Below are positions 36,659 through 43,640 of a stretch of 64,000 nt of DNA, piece after piece. How positions within the stretch are numbered: position 1 is the first letter of the stretch; each line of letters starts with the position of its first letter. Source of the stretch: Acidobacteriota bacterium (GTDB lineage Bacteria > Acidobacteriota > Terriglobia > Terriglobales > Acidobacteriaceae). The position numbers and the translations under genes were made by a program. The notes below the pieces were generated by a model. It had not been told where the DNA came from and did not search any database. It worked only from the letters and a program-made list of their open reading frames with translations. The stretch covers positions 62,001 to 126,000 of the forward strand of contig JABCZI010000006.1 of the NCBI GenBank assembly GCA_013289765.1, given 5' to 3'.

Positions 36659-37774
36659 ATGGACCCAGTCAGCGGGACGATCTACATCGTGGACAGAGAT
36701 AGAGACAACAAACCCGGCAAGCCATCCGGCTTGAATCCGTCGCAGGAGTCCGAAAGCACTCCGCCACCGATCGGGCCGCACAATCCTGCCTTAGGCGAGA
36801 TTTACCAGCGTCTCTATCCGGAGATGCGGCGGCCCAAGCCGAATCAGGAGGCCATTGCCGCAGCTTTGCAGGCTATGCAGCGCCTCACCATGGAAGCAGA
36901 TTCCGAAACCGTAGCCGAACACGAATCGGTCCAGACCAGTGTCGACGCCCACACAGCTTGCCGCATATGCGGACATCACAATCGCTCAGGCAACAAGTTC
37001 TGCGGTTCCTGCGGACTTCTTCTCGGAACCGAACCGCCCGAGCCGGCGAAGCTGGGGTCGCAACCTGTAGTGTCAGCGAATCTCGACGAGGAACCCTTGC
37101 GCCAAGGCCCGCCCCCCGCGCCGGAAGCAGCGGAAGAGGTTCATCCTTCTCCAGGCTCGCCCGCAGGTGCGCACTATTATCACCATCACTACCATCATCA
37201 TTATTTCCAGGGCGGCGCAGCGGCGGATTTTGCGGCGCCGGCCGCCCGCGCGAATGCTCCAGAGAGTGCGCGCGAAGCGGATCGCTTGCGAGTCGCGGCT
37301 GCCGCCAAGGGTGAACCCATGACCCGCAGCGAGGCTGCGGTCCGGCGTCTGACCCAGGAGTGGGTTTTAGCTTGCAACACCCGGCAGCTCGATGAGTTGA
37401 TCGAACTCTACGCCGCGGACGCGCTCGTGCTGCGTTCGAACCTTCCTCCTATTCGCGGCGCAATGGCGGTGCGGGAATTCTTTTTCGCCTTGCTCGAGGC
37501 CGGCTTGGGAGAAGTCGCGCTGGACCCCATGCGCGTGGAAGTCTCTGGCGACCTGGCGCACGAAGTAGGACGCTACAGCGCTCTGGTCCCAGGAAACGCC
37601 GGTAAGCGCCGCGAAGAGCGTGGAAAATATCTTTGGGTGTTCGCCAAGCAGAGCAGTGGAGACTGGAAGCTGGTCTCCGAATGCTGGTCGAGCGATTTGA
37701 CCCTTTCAGGCGCGGAGTCCGATGTGCCGAAGCCTGTACTTCCGTCGGCGAAGACCCAACCGCGAAGAGGATAG
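36659..37774 (+). CDS. Zinc-ribbon, His-rich and SnoaL/NTF2-like domain protein
   Basis: Three modules are visible. Residues about 35-75 are a short helical region (IYQRLYPEMRRPKPNQEAIAAAL). Residues about 98-120 are a zinc ribbon (CRICGHHNRSGNKFCGSCG). A Pro-rich linker follows with a His/Tyr run (HYYHHHYHHHYF, about 175-186). Residues about 225-350 are an SnoaL/DUF4440-like NTF2 cone (WVLACNTRQLDELIELYAADAL, IRGAMAVREFF, YLWVFAKQSSGDWKLV). DUF4440-type domains often bind or act on small ligands. The ribbon and His run suggest metal binding. I have no functional family for this combination. Confidence 0.75.
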   Translation: MDPVSGTIYIVDRDRDNKPGKPSGLNPSQESESTPPPIGPHNPALGEIYQRLYPEMRRPKPNQEAIAAALQAMQRLTMEADSETVAEHESVQTSVDAHTACRICGHHNRSGNKFCGSCGLLLGTEPPEPAKLGSQPVVSANLDEEPLRQGPPPAPEAAEEVHPSPGSPAGAHYYHHHYHHHYFQGGAAADFAAPAARANAPESAREADRLRVAAAAKGEPMTRSEAAVRRLTQEWVLACNTRQLDELIELYAADALVLRSNLPPIRGAMAVREFFFALLEAGLGEVALDPMRVEVSGDLAHEVGRYSALVPGNAGKRREERGKYLWVFAKQSSGDWKLVSECWSSDLTLSGAESDVPKPVLPSAKTQPRRG

Positions 37775-38462: not shown

Positions 38463-39719
38463 CTAGTGTTTGTAGAGTGTCGTCTCGGGATGGTAGTTGC
38501 GCCAGTCGAACCAATAGTCTTTGAGCGCGGGAGTTTGATCGAGGCATTTTCCCAGCGCGGAGCCGGACGTGGCGCAGCCCTGAAAGTTCCATTGGCTGGC
38601 GGTGGAGGCATCTACGAGATTCCATTGGTTGCTATCGGTGGCTGACTCGGGTGCGCGGAGAAAAAACTCGGCATCGCGGCCATCGATCCGGCTGACGAAG
38701 ACGCGAAATGATTTGCCGTCCGCACCGAGTACAAGAAGCACCGGCGTGCCGTTGACGCGATCGAGAATAGGAGATTGTTTTGCGAACGTGTCCCAGGGAT
38801 AAGCGCGAGCCGCGCCGCCAATCGTGAGCCCGATAACGACGTCGCGCGACTTGAGCTCAGTACCGGGGAAGCTGATGACGACCGGAAGCTTAGCGACGTC
38901 CGGTTCCCAGTTGCTGTCATATTCTTTCGTGTATTTGACGACAGGCGCGAGAACCTGGCCGGAAGGTGATTCAGTTCTCCATTCGCCGAAGGTGAGCTCG
39001 TCGCTAAGAACGAGTTCGAGCGCCACGCCCTGCAGCGGGCCGTAGATGGCCTTGCCGGTGATCTGCTGCCACCAGGTTCCGGTCTCGCGGTCGCGCATCA
39101 GAAAATTCTGGTTGTTGATGCCAGCCAGATAAAAATGCAGCATCCTTCCGTTCACCGTTCGTTTCCACACCAGACCGGTGTGACAGAGCGTTCAATAAGT
39201 GACGGCGATGGGGACTCCCGCGACGACATCGTTGAGAACGTGATGATAGGCCATCTGGCTGATGGGGTAGGCGCGCGCCTCAGTGCCAATCCTTACGGCC
39301 ATGATCATTTGCTTGGCGTCGAGCTTGCTATCCGCCTGCGCGACAAATTGCGCCCCGTCGATGGGGTGGAACATCCACTCGAAATAATTAAGGCGCGCCA
39401 TCACTGCGGAGAATGTGACCAGCAGCAAGGTGAGAACCAGCAGCGACTTGCGCCAGCGGCTTGCCGTTTTCCACAATACCAGGGCGAGAATAAAGCAGGC
39501 GAGAGCGGCGATCAGAGTGCCGAGCGGAGCCCGCTGGCGCAGCGTCATCGCCAAGAGAAGAGCGCGCGGCGACTGATGACGAAAGGGGCGAATGATGAAG
39601 GCAGGAATAAAGAACAGGCCGATGCCGGCAAGAGCGAAAAGCGAGTACGCGAACCACCGCCGGGATGAAACCGGAGGCTCTCTGCGGAGTGTCGGCGGGT
39701 ATAGCGAGGATGCTGACAT
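38463..39719 (-). CDS. DUF3179 membrane protein with in-frame UGA at the conserved Cys: candidate selenoprotein
   Basis: Three membrane segments (about 23-45, 66-86 and 90-108) anchor a DUF3179 domain (about 115-405). The domain has FHPIDGAQFV, the conserved VNDVVAGVPIAVTY strand, then a UGA (39194-39192, codon 176), then TLCHTGLVWKR, NFLMRDRETGTWWQQ and PLQGVALE. In relatives the UGA position is Cys in TYCPLC, so here a UxxC pair (Sec176, Cys179) is predicted. A hairpin with GGUCU loop follows (39183-39165). Reading through gives 418 residues with the domain intact on both sides. The fold is probably periplasmic and redox-active. Without Sec decoding it would look like two genes, one ending at 39192. 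The start ATG 39719 has a weak ribosome site. Confidence 0.8.
39165..39183 (-). promoter_or_regulatory. SECIS-like hairpin directly after the UGA
   Basis: On the minus strand CACACC (39182-39177) pairs with GGUGUG (39171-39166), six Watson-Crick pairs plus an outer U-G wobble. The five-base apical loop is GGUCU (39176-39172). The first loop G lies 15 bases after the UGA, close to the 16-37 nt range given for bacterial SECIS and slightly short of it. The loop is the same as in the E. coli fdhF element (from memory). Confidence 0.8.
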
Positions 39720-39846: not shown

Positions 39847-41484
39847 TTAGTACATCTCTTCGCGGGAAGCGACGACGGCATATTGTACGAAACTGCCAAA
39901 GTCGGCCCAGCAACTGTTGTATTGGATGAAGTTGCTGCCGCCGCCGGTCCAATTGAGTGTGGGCGATCCCAACGCGGCAAGTTGCGGGTATGGAGAGCTA
40001 TGGCTGTTGGTATTGGCGATGAGAACCTCCCCATTGACCTGGCCGCCACCGCCACCGTGTACGTTCATGATTCCTTGTCCGATGACCATGATGATCCCAT
40101 CAAAATTCGTGTTCCCGTTGAAGGTGAGTGTACCGGTCACGACTAGTACCCCAGCGCCGCCACCCACAGTTGCATCGCCGTTAATATAAGTGATCTGCGG
40201 AGCGGCGTCGCTGCCGAACGTTGTTCCTGAGCAAGCAGCATTACCCGGACAGGTGAGGTTGGCTGCGTTCGCCATGGCTTGCGCCAATCCGTTTAGTTGG
40301 GCAGGGGTAGACCAGTTCGAACCGGGCCCCAGGACGTTGTTACTGGGATACTGGGCGCTTCCTACTCCCTCGTTCTGCACCGAAGGGGTGCTGGGTGCTG
40401 GAGGAGTGCCGGGAAGTGGAGTTGATCCCGTGTAATTGCCAGTGCGGTTGCTGGGAATCTGGCTAGTCATGTTGGACGCACCAGTAGCGTCACCGACCCC
40501 GATTGCCGGTAGCACCGCGGGGATTGGGTTGGTACACGCGTTCTGCGAGCCGGGTCCATCCCATGGAACATATGCATTAGTGCAAGGCGCGGGGGCGAGA
40601 GGTCCGTTGGCGGGGTCAGTGCTGTTACAGCCGCTGATTCCGAAGTTGTTTGAGTTTGGCGCGCTATTGAATTGGGCGTTCGGACCCGCAAAGTCCAGGC
40701 CTGCAGCTGGCGGCGTAATCATGAAAGCCCCAGCTTCGTATTGCCCGACTCGGCGGCTTCCTGACGGGGTTACGGCCAGCGAGGTAATCAGGTATACCGG
40801 CATAACGTTGAGGCCGCCAACATTCTTAGCCAGCTGGCAGGTGGCATAGCCCATGGCCAGCGCTACCCGCTCTTTGAGCAGGGTTCCGTCCCAACATACT
40901 GGAGAAGCAAGGCCAGGAACGGTATTTTGGCTGGGATCTACGAGAGCACTGGGAAAGGTCCCATTCGTTTTTATCGTGATGCGAACCCACTTATATTTCA
41001 AGGCAGCTGCGGTACCGGTGTTGGGTGACGCGCTGAGCATGGTTGTAAAGCTGCCCACAGGCGGTACATCAGCTGCGGGACACGACCCCGTGCCTGGGGC
41101 TACGTACGGCAAAGCGCCGAACGATTCGTGGCAAAACTCATCATCAATGTAGGGGTTCCCAGCAGTGGTCGGAGCAACGACGTCCCCGCCACCAGCGGAA
41201 TTTAGGATGTAGACAACAGAACCCGCCGCGGGCGGCGCTAGGATCGGCAAAGGAATCGTGGGCAGTGGGAGGCTGTTTGACCGCAGCCGGTCACGCCCCT
41301 CTTCCAGCCCGGCGCGCATGGCAAAGAAAGCTGCTTGCGTGTCTTTGTAATTGGCGTTGATCGAGGTTTCGGTGTTGGACATGTAAACCAGACCCAAACC
41401 GACCGCTGAAATCAGAAGCAGGGCCAAGAGGCTGAGAATCAGTGCCATGCCTCGTTCGTTCTTACTTAAATTGGTTTGGCGCAT
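39847..41484 (-). CDS. PilX-like type IV pilus assembly protein
   Basis: The N-terminus ERGMALILSLLALLLISAVGLGLVYMSN is the long hydrophobic helix of PilX/PilV-like pseudopilin-associated proteins, followed by an ATG-preceding AGGAGG (41494-41499). The remaining 500 residues are Gly/Pro/Asn-rich beta structure with 40 or so short turns. It is the last gene of a four-gene pseudopilin operon (FimT, PilV, PilW, PilX order). PilX tunes pilus retraction and aggregation in Neisseria; here the size (545 residues) is far larger than that protein, so the role is inferred by position. No PilY1 gene is adjacent. Confidence 0.8.
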   Translation of the reverse strand: MRQTNLSKNERGMALILSLLALLLISAVGLGLVYMSNTETSINANYKDTQAAFFAMRAGLEEGRDRLRSNSLPLPTIPLPILAPPAAGSVVYILNSAGGGDVVAPTTAGNPYIDDEFCHESFGALPYVAPGTGSCPAADVPPVGSFTTMLSASPNTGTAAALKYKWVRITIKTNGTFPSALVDPSQNTVPGLASPVCWDGTLLKERVALAMGYATCQLAKNVGGLNVMPVYLITSLAVTPSGSRRVGQYEAGAFMITPPAAGLDFAGPNAQFNSAPNSNNFGISGCNSTDPANGPLAPAPCTNAYVPWDGPGSQNACTNPIPAVLPAIGVGDATGASNMTSQIPSNRTGNYTGSTPLPGTPPAPSTPSVQNEGVGSAQYPSNNVLGPGSNWSTPAQLNGLAQAMANAANLTCPGNAACSGTTFGSDAAPQITYINGDATVGGGAGVLVVTGTLTFNGNTNFDGIIMVIGQGIMNVHGGGGGQVNGEVLIANTNSHSSPYPQLAALGSPTLNWTGGGSNFIQYNSCWADFGSFVQYAVVASREEMY

Positions 41485-41497
41485 TGAAGAAAACCTC

Positions 41498-42409
41498 CTA
41501 GTTGTTATTCACGAGGCGCGCCGTGCCCACCAATGTGGTCACAGGCCGCACGCCGGTCTTCAAATCAGTGCCAGTGGTTGCGTTGGCCAGAAGATTGACG
41601 GTGAGCCGAATCGACTTGATGCAACCTGTGTTAGCGAGCCCGCAGGTGAGTATTTGCGTGTTGCCTGCTAGTAGATCTGCGGGCATCGCAATGACGTTGC
41701 CCGACTGGTCATAGGCTTGAAAGACTGGGTAATCCTTAAATGTGCTGACGGCAGCGTAGTAAGCGGTATTGGTTGCTCCCCAGGAAGTGCTGCCTGAGAT
41801 GGGCGCGCCGCCGCCGTATGCATTGGTGCCGGCAGGTTGTCCGCTGTTGACCACATTTTGCAGCTCTTGATAGAACGTGCGCGGACCCTGCCCCCAGGGA
41901 TTGGTGCCACCGACTTTCGGTATTTGGTTACGCTGGAGCGTGCAGGGGCAGTTTAAGGGAGGGTTGTTGCCGTTCGAGTCCACTAACTTATACTCGACGG
42001 AATCTACCGTGCCGTTGCCGTCAACGTCTCCCTCGAAAACGACCAAGGTATTGTCGACATGAACTAAGCCGACCGCCACGGCTGAATTCGTAGCCACTAA
42101 TGGCTGGGTGCCGTCTGCGGGGCAGTTGGCTGCCGCGCCTGTAGTGGCCACCATTTTACAGCTGGGATAGCCGGCCTGATGCAAGTCGCGCTCAAACTCA
42201 TCGATGAATTCACGGCCAGACTGAGTCAGATCCACCTTGACCTGTTCCGACTGGCTGCGCTGGATCACGGTATTGATGCCCTCGAATACGGCGCCCAGCA
42301 CGACCGCAAGAATCGCACACACGATCATAAGTTCAAGCAGGGTAAAGCCCGCTTGCGATGTAGTCGGTTTCTGTCGAGAAAGTTTCATGTTCATATCGGG
42401 TCTGCTCAC
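41498..42409 (-). CDS. PilW-like pseudopilin
   Basis: A class III signal (SQAGFTLLELMIVCAILAVVLGAVFE) gives the Gly-Phe cleavage site and Glu at +5. The rest is a beta-rich pseudopilin domain (VDLTQSGREFIDEFERDLHQAGYPSC, VVFEGDVDGNGTVDSVEY). GTG 42409 shares one base with the PilV stop codon; ATG 42394 is an alternative. Predicted minor pseudopilin of a type IV pilus, processed by PilD at the inner membrane. Confidence 0.85.
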   Translation of the reverse strand: MSRPDMNMKLSRQKPTTSQAGFTLLELMIVCAILAVVLGAVFEGINTVIQRSQSEQVKVDLTQSGREFIDEFERDLHQAGYPSCKMVATTGAAANCPADGTQPLVATNSAVAVGLVHVDNTLVVFEGDVDGNGTVDSVEYKLVDSNGNNPPLNCPCTLQRNQIPKVGGTNPWGQGPRTFYQELQNVVNSGQPAGTNAYGGGAPISGSTSWGATNTAYYAAVSTFKDYPVFQAYDQSGNVIAMPADLLAGNTQILTCGLANTGCIKSIRLTVNLLANATTGTDLKTGVRPVTTLVGTARLVNNN

Positions 42410-43023
42410 TAATCAACGACCGTGTGCAAAGTGGTTGGAATGGAAAAGAGCATTGCAACCTTGCTGCCATTGGACTCAATCTGGCGGGAGGAGACGGTTA
42501 ATTCCGCGAGGCGGGTTACACCGTTTAACTGCAAAATATTCCAGCGAACCTCGTAGACGTCTCCGTTGCAGGTTTGATAGTTCATGGCGTAACCGGGAGT
42601 GGCTGAGGTTGCCAAAGTGGGCGTGGGCTGAGTCCAGTCGATGTCCCCCACATTGCCGGGAAATGGGGCCGTGGCTGCGGTATACGTCGTGGCGCCGGCC
42701 CCTGGAGCGCCAGCACTGGCCAGCGAGGCAATGTGTGTACTCGCAGCGCCATTGCTGCAGTCATTGATGGTGAGGGTGCCGGTTGCCGGATAATTCTGAT
42801 AGGTGGCAAACTGCTCCAGGATCTCCTGGTCGAGAACCACGGCAGCAGTGTCGTTCTTGTTGCGCGCGTCGGATTGGATGGCGGCCAGAATCATGCCCAT
42901 AGCTCCGGTCATTCCAACTGCGAGAATCGCCATGGCGAATAGAAGTTCGAGCATGGTCATGCCGCGCTCACGGATTTTCCGGGAGTTGGCGCTTTCCGAA
43001 AGATGGTTAGGCGAGTTATGCAT
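42409..43023 (-). CDS. PilV-like pseudopilin
   Basis: ATG 43023 has GAGG at seven bases; the in-frame extension upstream is rejected because it overlaps the FimT gene end. The signal ERGMTMLELLFAMAILAVGMTGAM gives Gly/Met cleavage with Glu at +5. A disulfide-type pair (CSNGA..., CNGDVYE) lies in the 204-residue body. It is 8 bp from FimT upstream and shares one base with PilW downstream, so the operon is tightly coupled. Confidence 0.85.
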   Translation of the reverse strand: MHNSPNHLSESANSRKIRERGMTMLELLFAMAILAVGMTGAMGMILAAIQSDARNKNDTAAVVLDQEILEQFATYQNYPATGTLTINDCSNGAASTHIASLASAGAPGAGATTYTAATAPFPGNVGDIDWTQPTPTLATSATPGYAMNYQTCNGDVYEVRWNILQLNGVTRLAELTVSSRQIESNGSKVAMLFSIPTTLHTVVD

Positions 43024-43031
43024 TTTGTTCC

Positions 43032-43640
43032 TCAATCCCGCTGTATCCAGAAGCCGCTCTTGTCGCAGGTCCAAATCTGAATGTGTGCGCTTGGGTTGAC
43101 GACGATCGCAGCCCAGGGAATGTTTCCAACGATTCCGGGTTTCGACACAAACATTACGAAGCCCTGTCCTAGAATCGGGTTGCAGATGCCGGCACCCTGG
43201 ATGCAGGGAAGCCCGCGCGCGCTGAAGCTTGGTGGATCTGCGGCCGGGTCTACTGCGAAATTCAGGCCGGCCAGGAAAGCGGTTTCGTTCGGCGCACCAC
43301 TACCTGCTCCCAGCCATACGTTCACGTTCGGATTGACCGGTAATATCGGGTCCCCAGCCGCGTATGCTGTCCCGGGTTTATCGATGTAATACATTGGCGT
43401 GCCGCCGGTCATCGTTCCGGCCATCACCGATTGGGCGACGTTGGTTCGGACTGCTTGCATGCGAGCTGACTGCAAAAGACCGCTGAGATCGCTCGCCACG
43501 TATCTAAGGCTGATGTCATTGACCGCAGTCATCATTCGGGGCACCGCCAACGCGCCCAAAACAAACATCACTGCGATCACGATGAGGAGCTCGAGCAGCG
43601 TAAAGCCTTGACGCTTTTTCTGTGATGTGGAATTCAGCAT
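43032..43640 (-). CDS. FimT/GspH-like pseudopilin
   Basis: QGFTLLELLIVIAVMFVLGALAVPRMM is the class III signal with cleavage after Gly and Glu at +5. The following block LRYVASDLSGLLQSARMQAVRTN is the diagnostic GspH/FimT helix. It is the first gene of the pseudopilin operon, and such proteins prime pilus assembly. The ATG at 43640 lacks a strong ribosome site (an AGGAG sits about 17 bases upstream), so the start is slightly uncertain. Confidence 0.85.
   Translation of the reverse strand: MLNSTSQKKRQGFTLLELLIVIAVMFVLGALAVPRMMTAVNDISLRYVASDLSGLLQSARMQAVRTNVAQSVMAGTMTGGTPMYYIDKPGTAYAAGDPILPVNPNVNVWLGAGSGAPNETAFLAGLNFAVDPAADPPSFSARGLPCIQGAGICNPILGQGFVMFVSKPGIVGNIPWAAIVVNPSAHIQIWTCDKSGFWIQRD

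Follow-up and report, generated by a model that had tools for sequence, protein, structure and literature searches.

Selenoproteins of the DUF3179 family (PF11376) have been described before: in their selenoprotein entries, two reviews list the family with the motif UxxC/T (U, selenocysteine, Sec) and credit it to Zhang and Gladyshev 2007 and the Olavius algarvensis symbiont (PMC9312934; PMC13188914). These entries mention neither Acidobacteriota nor a selenocysteine insertion sequence (SECIS), a fold or a function. For the Acidobacteria, three selenoprotein families were counted in 2006 (PMC1794560), and three known selenoprotein genes are given for Occallatibacter riparius (PMC12013277); DUF3179 is named in neither paper. 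In the literature searched, with most subscription papers and preprints outside its scope, nothing was found on the DUF3179 fold, its hairpins or its acidobacterial spread, and DUF3179 was not found together with Rieske proteins. Papers mentioning both selenoproteins and Rieske proteins concern, by the titles listed, other subjects. Here, we analyze a DUF3179 gene in a 64,000-nucleotide stretch of an Acidobacteriota bacterium genome (GCA_013289765.1, contig JABCZI010000006.1, positions 62,001 to 126,000; “the window”), which very probably encodes a selenoprotein with Sec at residue 176, inserted by UGA read-through, and which shares the Pfam domain and a UxxC-type motif with the reviewed protein. 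The original prediction, made from the letters of the window, knew of no described DUF3179 selenoprotein; the two reviews contradict this. With the family already known, the present analysis contributes its breadth in Acidobacteriota, a further subfamily whose hairpin differs, several apparent exchanges between Sec and cysteine (Cys), and a model of two Rieske-like folds.

On the reverse strand, an open reading frame (ORF) from 39719 stops at a TGA ending at 39192, and the frame then continues open to a TAG at 38463. The claim that this UGA (39194-39192) lies inside one DUF3179 frame is borne out: the read-through product is a complete DUF3179 protein of 418 residues, matching PF11376 at 210.1 bits (E 6.3e-62, residues 120-413; gathering cut-off 27). 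At E 0.001, NCBIfam holds no family for this protein or for a Cys form (L087). Codon 176 is TGA, and Cys179 follows three residues on (UTLC). Along residues 115-175 as well as 177-418, differences to relatives fall mostly at third codon positions in 9/9 relatives compared; both sides of the UGA therefore look translated and under selection.

The site is conserved well beyond the genus. Among 45 genus genomes, 28 had a match and 25 a homologue spanning the site, with TGA in 25/25 and the CACACCGGTCTGGTGTGG bases unchanged in 23/25; in L073, one hairpin pair is altered on both sides, while L071 has a damaged stem. Across the class, 399 genomes were searched and 132 had a match, with UGA as well as Cys forms among them. 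Genome contigs were further scanned by the peptide patterns LCHTGLVW and LAGINN[QG]N near the site, which favours conserved residues and not particular codons; TGA was present in 80/80 loci retained as the best 80 of 188 confirmed stretches, all Acidobacteriota by title. The titles name Terriglobia, Bryobacterales, Pyrinomonadaceae and Thermoanaerobaculum, so that the selenoprotein family is spread through several Acidobacteriota groups. The contig scan overlaps with the genome searches, and 169 loci gave 141 distinct homologues (25 from the genus, 25 from the class, 52 named and 39 fetched by place), among which close relatives remain; L208, where the site is absent, and L076-L080 were left out. 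Residue 176 is Sec or Cys in 139 of the 141 and Ser in two, as the original prediction had anticipated, and Cys179 is kept in 138 (two Ser, one Ala). A sequencing error at the UGA is very unlikely, given the TGA counts in Table 1 and TGA in 116 of the 141 distinct sequences, a set to which Cys forms were added deliberately. In the database, the best 120 of 3306 homologues are 229-246 residues long with 55-56% query coverage, about the post-UGA part, N-terminal halves being too short to be candidates in this search. The nearest entries thus hold only what follows the UGA, evidently through truncation in annotation at this codon. Separately, about 37-40 residues, UGA site and hairpin included, are missing from two DUF3179 genes (L076 and L077, in G034 and G062), each of which matches in two separate pieces; in G063, matches occur only in pieces away from the site.

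Bacterial SECIS (bSECIS) elements, according to the rules quoted in one of the reviews (PMC13188914), have a loop of 3-9 nucleotides (nt), a stem of 4-16 base pairs (bp), a G in the first two loop positions, a minimum free energy of at most -7.5 kcal/mol and 16-37 nt between UGA and loop. The original prediction had proposed a hairpin of six pairs (CACACC/GGUGUG) with a GGUCU loop fifteen bases past the UGA. This hairpin is indeed found, extended by a seventh G.U pair, at -9.5 kcal/mol over the 35 nt that begin with the UGA (RNAfold), and it agrees with the bSECIS model in loop size (5 nt), stem length (7 bp), GG loop start and energy. Its spacing, 15 nt in the window's subfamily, is borderline to that model; in the second subfamily, spacing is 20 nt. 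The Rfam SECIS family (RF00031) gave no match, but controls were equally silent, which makes this result uninformative; seven other Rfam matches in 38950-39300, all to snoRNA families and under gathering scores, were taken as chance.

More telling is the comparison of 96 distinct UGA forms of the window's subfamily with 16 Cys forms carrying the HTG motif, in which the in-frame UGA aligns with the Cys of homologues, as expected of a bacterial selenoprotein. Among 69 columns with at least 95% amino-acid conservation and a synonymous choice in the UGA forms, codon variation is lowest at residues 180, 183, 184, 182, 177 and 181, of which 180-184 lie inside the hairpin and 177 directly follows the UGA. 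The hairpin codons are evidently frozen beyond what the protein requires, and the suggestion that protein and RNA constraints coincide in these bases is thereby upheld. For Gly182, GGT is used in 94/96 UGA forms vs. 1/16 Cys forms. In the 15-nt register, all seven pairs form in 91/96 Sec forms vs. 3/16 Cys forms; by all appearances, the hairpin decays in homologues with Cys. Fisher values do not correct for common descent. Two UGA forms with one changed residue (L161, L165) have arms GCCACAC/GUGUGGC and a loop beginning GGG (read by eye), L165 being scored as broken.

The UGA form also travels with the elongation factor: SelB exceeded its cut-off in 44/47 UGA genomes vs. 1/16 Cys genomes, and the three UGA exceptions have partial matches at contig starts (G399, G433) or a weaker match only (G134). 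A tree of 106 rows was built by a quick method, without an inferred root, with 32/103 inner branches left open and long branches flagged. On it, five changes are required to account for the states Sec, Cys and Ser. Nested within the UGA clade are L195, the two Ser rows and all 15 Cys rows from the window's family; L200/L201 are nested within the second UGA subfamily. The simplest reading of the tree is exchange of Sec for Cys within clades, apparently several times. SelB-less lineages carry the protein with Cys at the Sec position and a decayed hairpin. Sec and Cys forms together offer a natural experiment on keeping and losing a coding-region SECIS. L198 and L199, with Ser at both redox positions, are paralogues in genomes that also have the UGA form (G351, G402). 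For the window's gene, comparative sequence strongly supports a mechanism in which SelB, bound to the hairpin just past the UGA, would deliver Sec-tRNA-Sec, so that residue 176 becomes selenocysteine.

A distant DUF3179 subfamily with UGA (L209-L227) carries a different hairpin, CGGCCCU/AGGGCCG, with 20 nt from UGA to loop. Over 16 distinct rows, 99.1% of cells pair, and two-sided changes occur in 2/7 pairs, one sequence each; this covariation was reached by 5/500 shuffles. L228, with UxxA for UxxC, forms a hairpin of its own at a comparable position and was left out of the count because its best stem lies in another register.

At the protein level, the three membrane helices of the original prediction reappear in the structure model, where helices of membrane-spanning length cover residues 17-42, 51-83 and 88-107; matches of this part to acetylcholine receptors were taken as helix packing. 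The DUF3179 part is confidently modelled as two tandem Rieske-like folds, which hhalign aligns with each other at 99.8% (E 5e-29, 122 columns). While the predicted models show the Rieske fold, the CxH...CxxH cluster ligands are absent on inspection of the translation. In Rieske ferredoxins and related iron-sulphur proteins (2qpz, 2de5, 8hn2), by contrast, CxH and CxxH ligands are present; DUF3179 differs from them further in being duplicated and membrane-anchored, and no sequence similarity to them was found. NirD, the small subunit of nitrite reductase, is by contrast a cytoplasmic partner of NirB and is not known to contain selenocysteine. NirD structures (3c0d, 4aiv, 2jo6) are among the closest known systems to DUF3179. 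For Sec176 relative to a Rieske cluster loop, the nearly colinear aligned ranges suggest a different turn, but no position is claimed.

The three helices would anchor the product in the membrane with the DUF3179 part outside the cytoplasm. There, the Sec176/Cys179 pair would most likely alternate between a selenol/thiol and a selenenylsulphide state, in a putative periplasmic thiol/selenol oxidoreductase or peroxide-reducing reaction. An alternative, also compatible with Sec insertion, is that metal binding or cofactor handling, and not selenenylsulphide redox chemistry, is the role of the site made up by His159, Asp164, Sec/Cys176 and Cys179. Conservation of His159 (140/141), Asp164 (141/141) and Cys179 (138/141), together with the fact that Rieske folds are often metal folds, speaks for such a site, but UxxC is a common selenoprotein redox motif according to the entries cited (PMC9312934; PMC13188914), and the alternative is rather unlikely, if the most serious of those considered. 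Taken together, DUF3179 might be a cluster-free Rieske-type periplasmic protein using a Sec-Cys pair, widespread in Acidobacteriota, with two subfamilies of differently placed SECIS and several Sec to Cys exchanges; as a whole, this picture is tentative and less likely than not. If the Rieske-like fold is true, an iron-sulphur fold would have been re-used for selenium chemistry.

Table 1. Features of the DUF3179 locus (positions in the window, first base = 1).
Feature	Position	Strand	Basis
Probable DUF3179 selenoprotein gene, 418 codons through UGA	38463..39719	-	PF11376 match; layout identical in 25/25 site-spanning genus loci
UGA codon 176, very probably read as selenocysteine	39192..39194	-	TGA 123/130 loci, TGC 7/130 (duplicates kept)
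Cys179 codon, putative Sec176 partner (UxxC); third base = first stem base	39183..39185	-	Homologue conservation
SECIS-type hairpin, 7 pairs (six Watson-Crick + G.U), loop GGUCU 39172-39176	39165..39183	-	Folding, codon and pairing conservation
Three probable transmembrane helices, residues 17-107	39399..39671	-	Structure model; hydropathy windows starting 22, 62, 90
Rieske-like fold repeat 1 (predicted), residues 145-251, with Sec176 and Cys179, no iron-sulphur ligand motif	38967..39287	-	Predicted models
Rieske-like fold repeat 2 (predicted), residues 301-406, homologous to repeat 1	38502..38819	-	Predicted model and hhalign

Several observations pull in the other direction. Of the RNAfold check proposed along with the original prediction, the 35-nt result stands, but some longer stretches (50, 60 and 85 nt) prefer another pairing as their optimum. 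The loop begins at nt 16 after a gap of 15 nt, one short of the bacterial model. When the nine hairpin codons were recoded synonymously 5000 times, 198 of the variants were at least as stable, so that the hairpin taken in this single gene is only moderately unusual; that it goes beyond chance follows from its conservation across relatives and not from single-gene stability. Cys179 is replaced by Ala in one of the 141 homologues. Although none of the 15 Cys genomes in the window's family has SelB over the cut-off, G326 (Cys) does, and the Cys genomes without SelB group in a single clade, which means that few independent events stand behind the association. The Rieske likeness is one of fold only, with a Foldseek E of 0.028 at best: profile comparison with 95 Rieske ferredoxins (hhalign) gave nothing, all below 1%, so that Rieske identity by sequence profile is not supported; a sequence-profile search of the PDB returned none at E 0.1; and among the 25 of 73 Pfam families listed for 43 members at E 5, the sole Rieske-linked one was QcrA_N in two members, at a chance-level best E of 0.22. 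Finally, gene neighbourhoods suggest no pathway, as even the most frequent neighbour cluster is present at 25 of the 80 named loci at most.

The most direct objection comes from the window's own genome. selB (355.5 bits), selA (545.7 bits, two matched stretches summed) and selD (373 bits) all exceed their cut-offs, as the original prediction had expected, and selD itself has one in-frame TGA near its N-terminus (MAETKPFRLTESVKAAG-U-ASKLSP; L018 1531-1533, G000:C2) with a strong hairpin downstream. The tRNA-Sec that the prediction had likewise expected, however, was not recognised in the assembly (18 contigs, 97.6% completeness) by the Rfam model, a lineage model, a pattern or ARAGORN on fetched stretches, where only part of the candidates were scored (150/673 in one search, 150/2007 in the search with the lineage model, R1). 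The best R1 score was 36.6 bits vs. 103.6 in G019, and 47 of 60 other genomes scanned reached at least 60 bits. Within the genus, 19/23 UGA genomes have a tRNA-Sec of at least 64 bits, the exceptions being the window's own genome, G029, G017 and G020; among loci of at least 60 bits, ARAGORN reported tRNA-Sec with anticodon TCA in 14/14 tested (20 fetched). Inspection of 35 stretches at contig ends in the own genome revealed neither tRNA-Sec nor an S1, PhzF or response-regulator flank gene. Beside tRNA-Sec in G019 and G014 (L046, L047) stands a peroxiredoxin-like gene (by eye), whose best match in the own genome is 31% identical.

It might be argued that the strain recently lost selC and that the gene is a decaying selenoprotein, translation now ending at the UGA. 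The missing tRNA-Sec and the distant match of its flanking gene would fit, but selA, selB and the UGA-containing selD are kept, the last of which would be cut short if UGA acted solely as a stop; the hairpin is intact; an assembly gap is simpler at this contig number and completeness; and the three other, less complete UGA genomes of the genus also lack a strong tRNA-Sec match. Recent loss is improbable, and we judge an assembly gap the likeliest explanation. That UGA is decoded as Cys or Trp, through an altered genetic code or a suppressor tRNA, is more improbable still: only the missing tRNA-Sec argues for it, and against it UGA serves as the stop of 13/38 mechanically called long ORFs in the window and of several orthologues, and the UGA form accompanies SelB. 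That the UGA is a true stop separating two proteins, the second from a GTG at 39170, is scarcely credible even though gene finders call such pieces, as the lengths of the best 120 of 3306 homologues illustrate, since Cys relatives encode full-length proteins in the same frame, the hairpin codons stay frozen among UGA forms but not among Cys forms, and both pieces fall in one confidently modelled two-repeat fold. Sec insertion at residue 176 thus remains the preferred reading.

The own genome contains a further gene with an in-frame UGA, in the context DW-U-PFCK and with a hairpin downstream (L108 1615-1617, G000:C7). It is labelled peroxiredoxin-like from NCBIfam matches under cut-off, and is a candidate for a third selenoprotein of this genome.

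Around the DUF3179 gene, the neighbours most often seen among the 80 named loci (names by eye) are pilin-like genes upstream (25), a HAD-type gene downstream (17) and, downstream on the opposite strand, a gene for a zinc-ribbon-type protein (18/80). In the window, three genes that look related to type IV pilins (by eye) lie at 39847-43074 on the reverse strand, and 36659-37774 on the forward strand encodes a protein with zinc-ribbon-like CxxC...CxxC and histidine-rich stretches (by eye).
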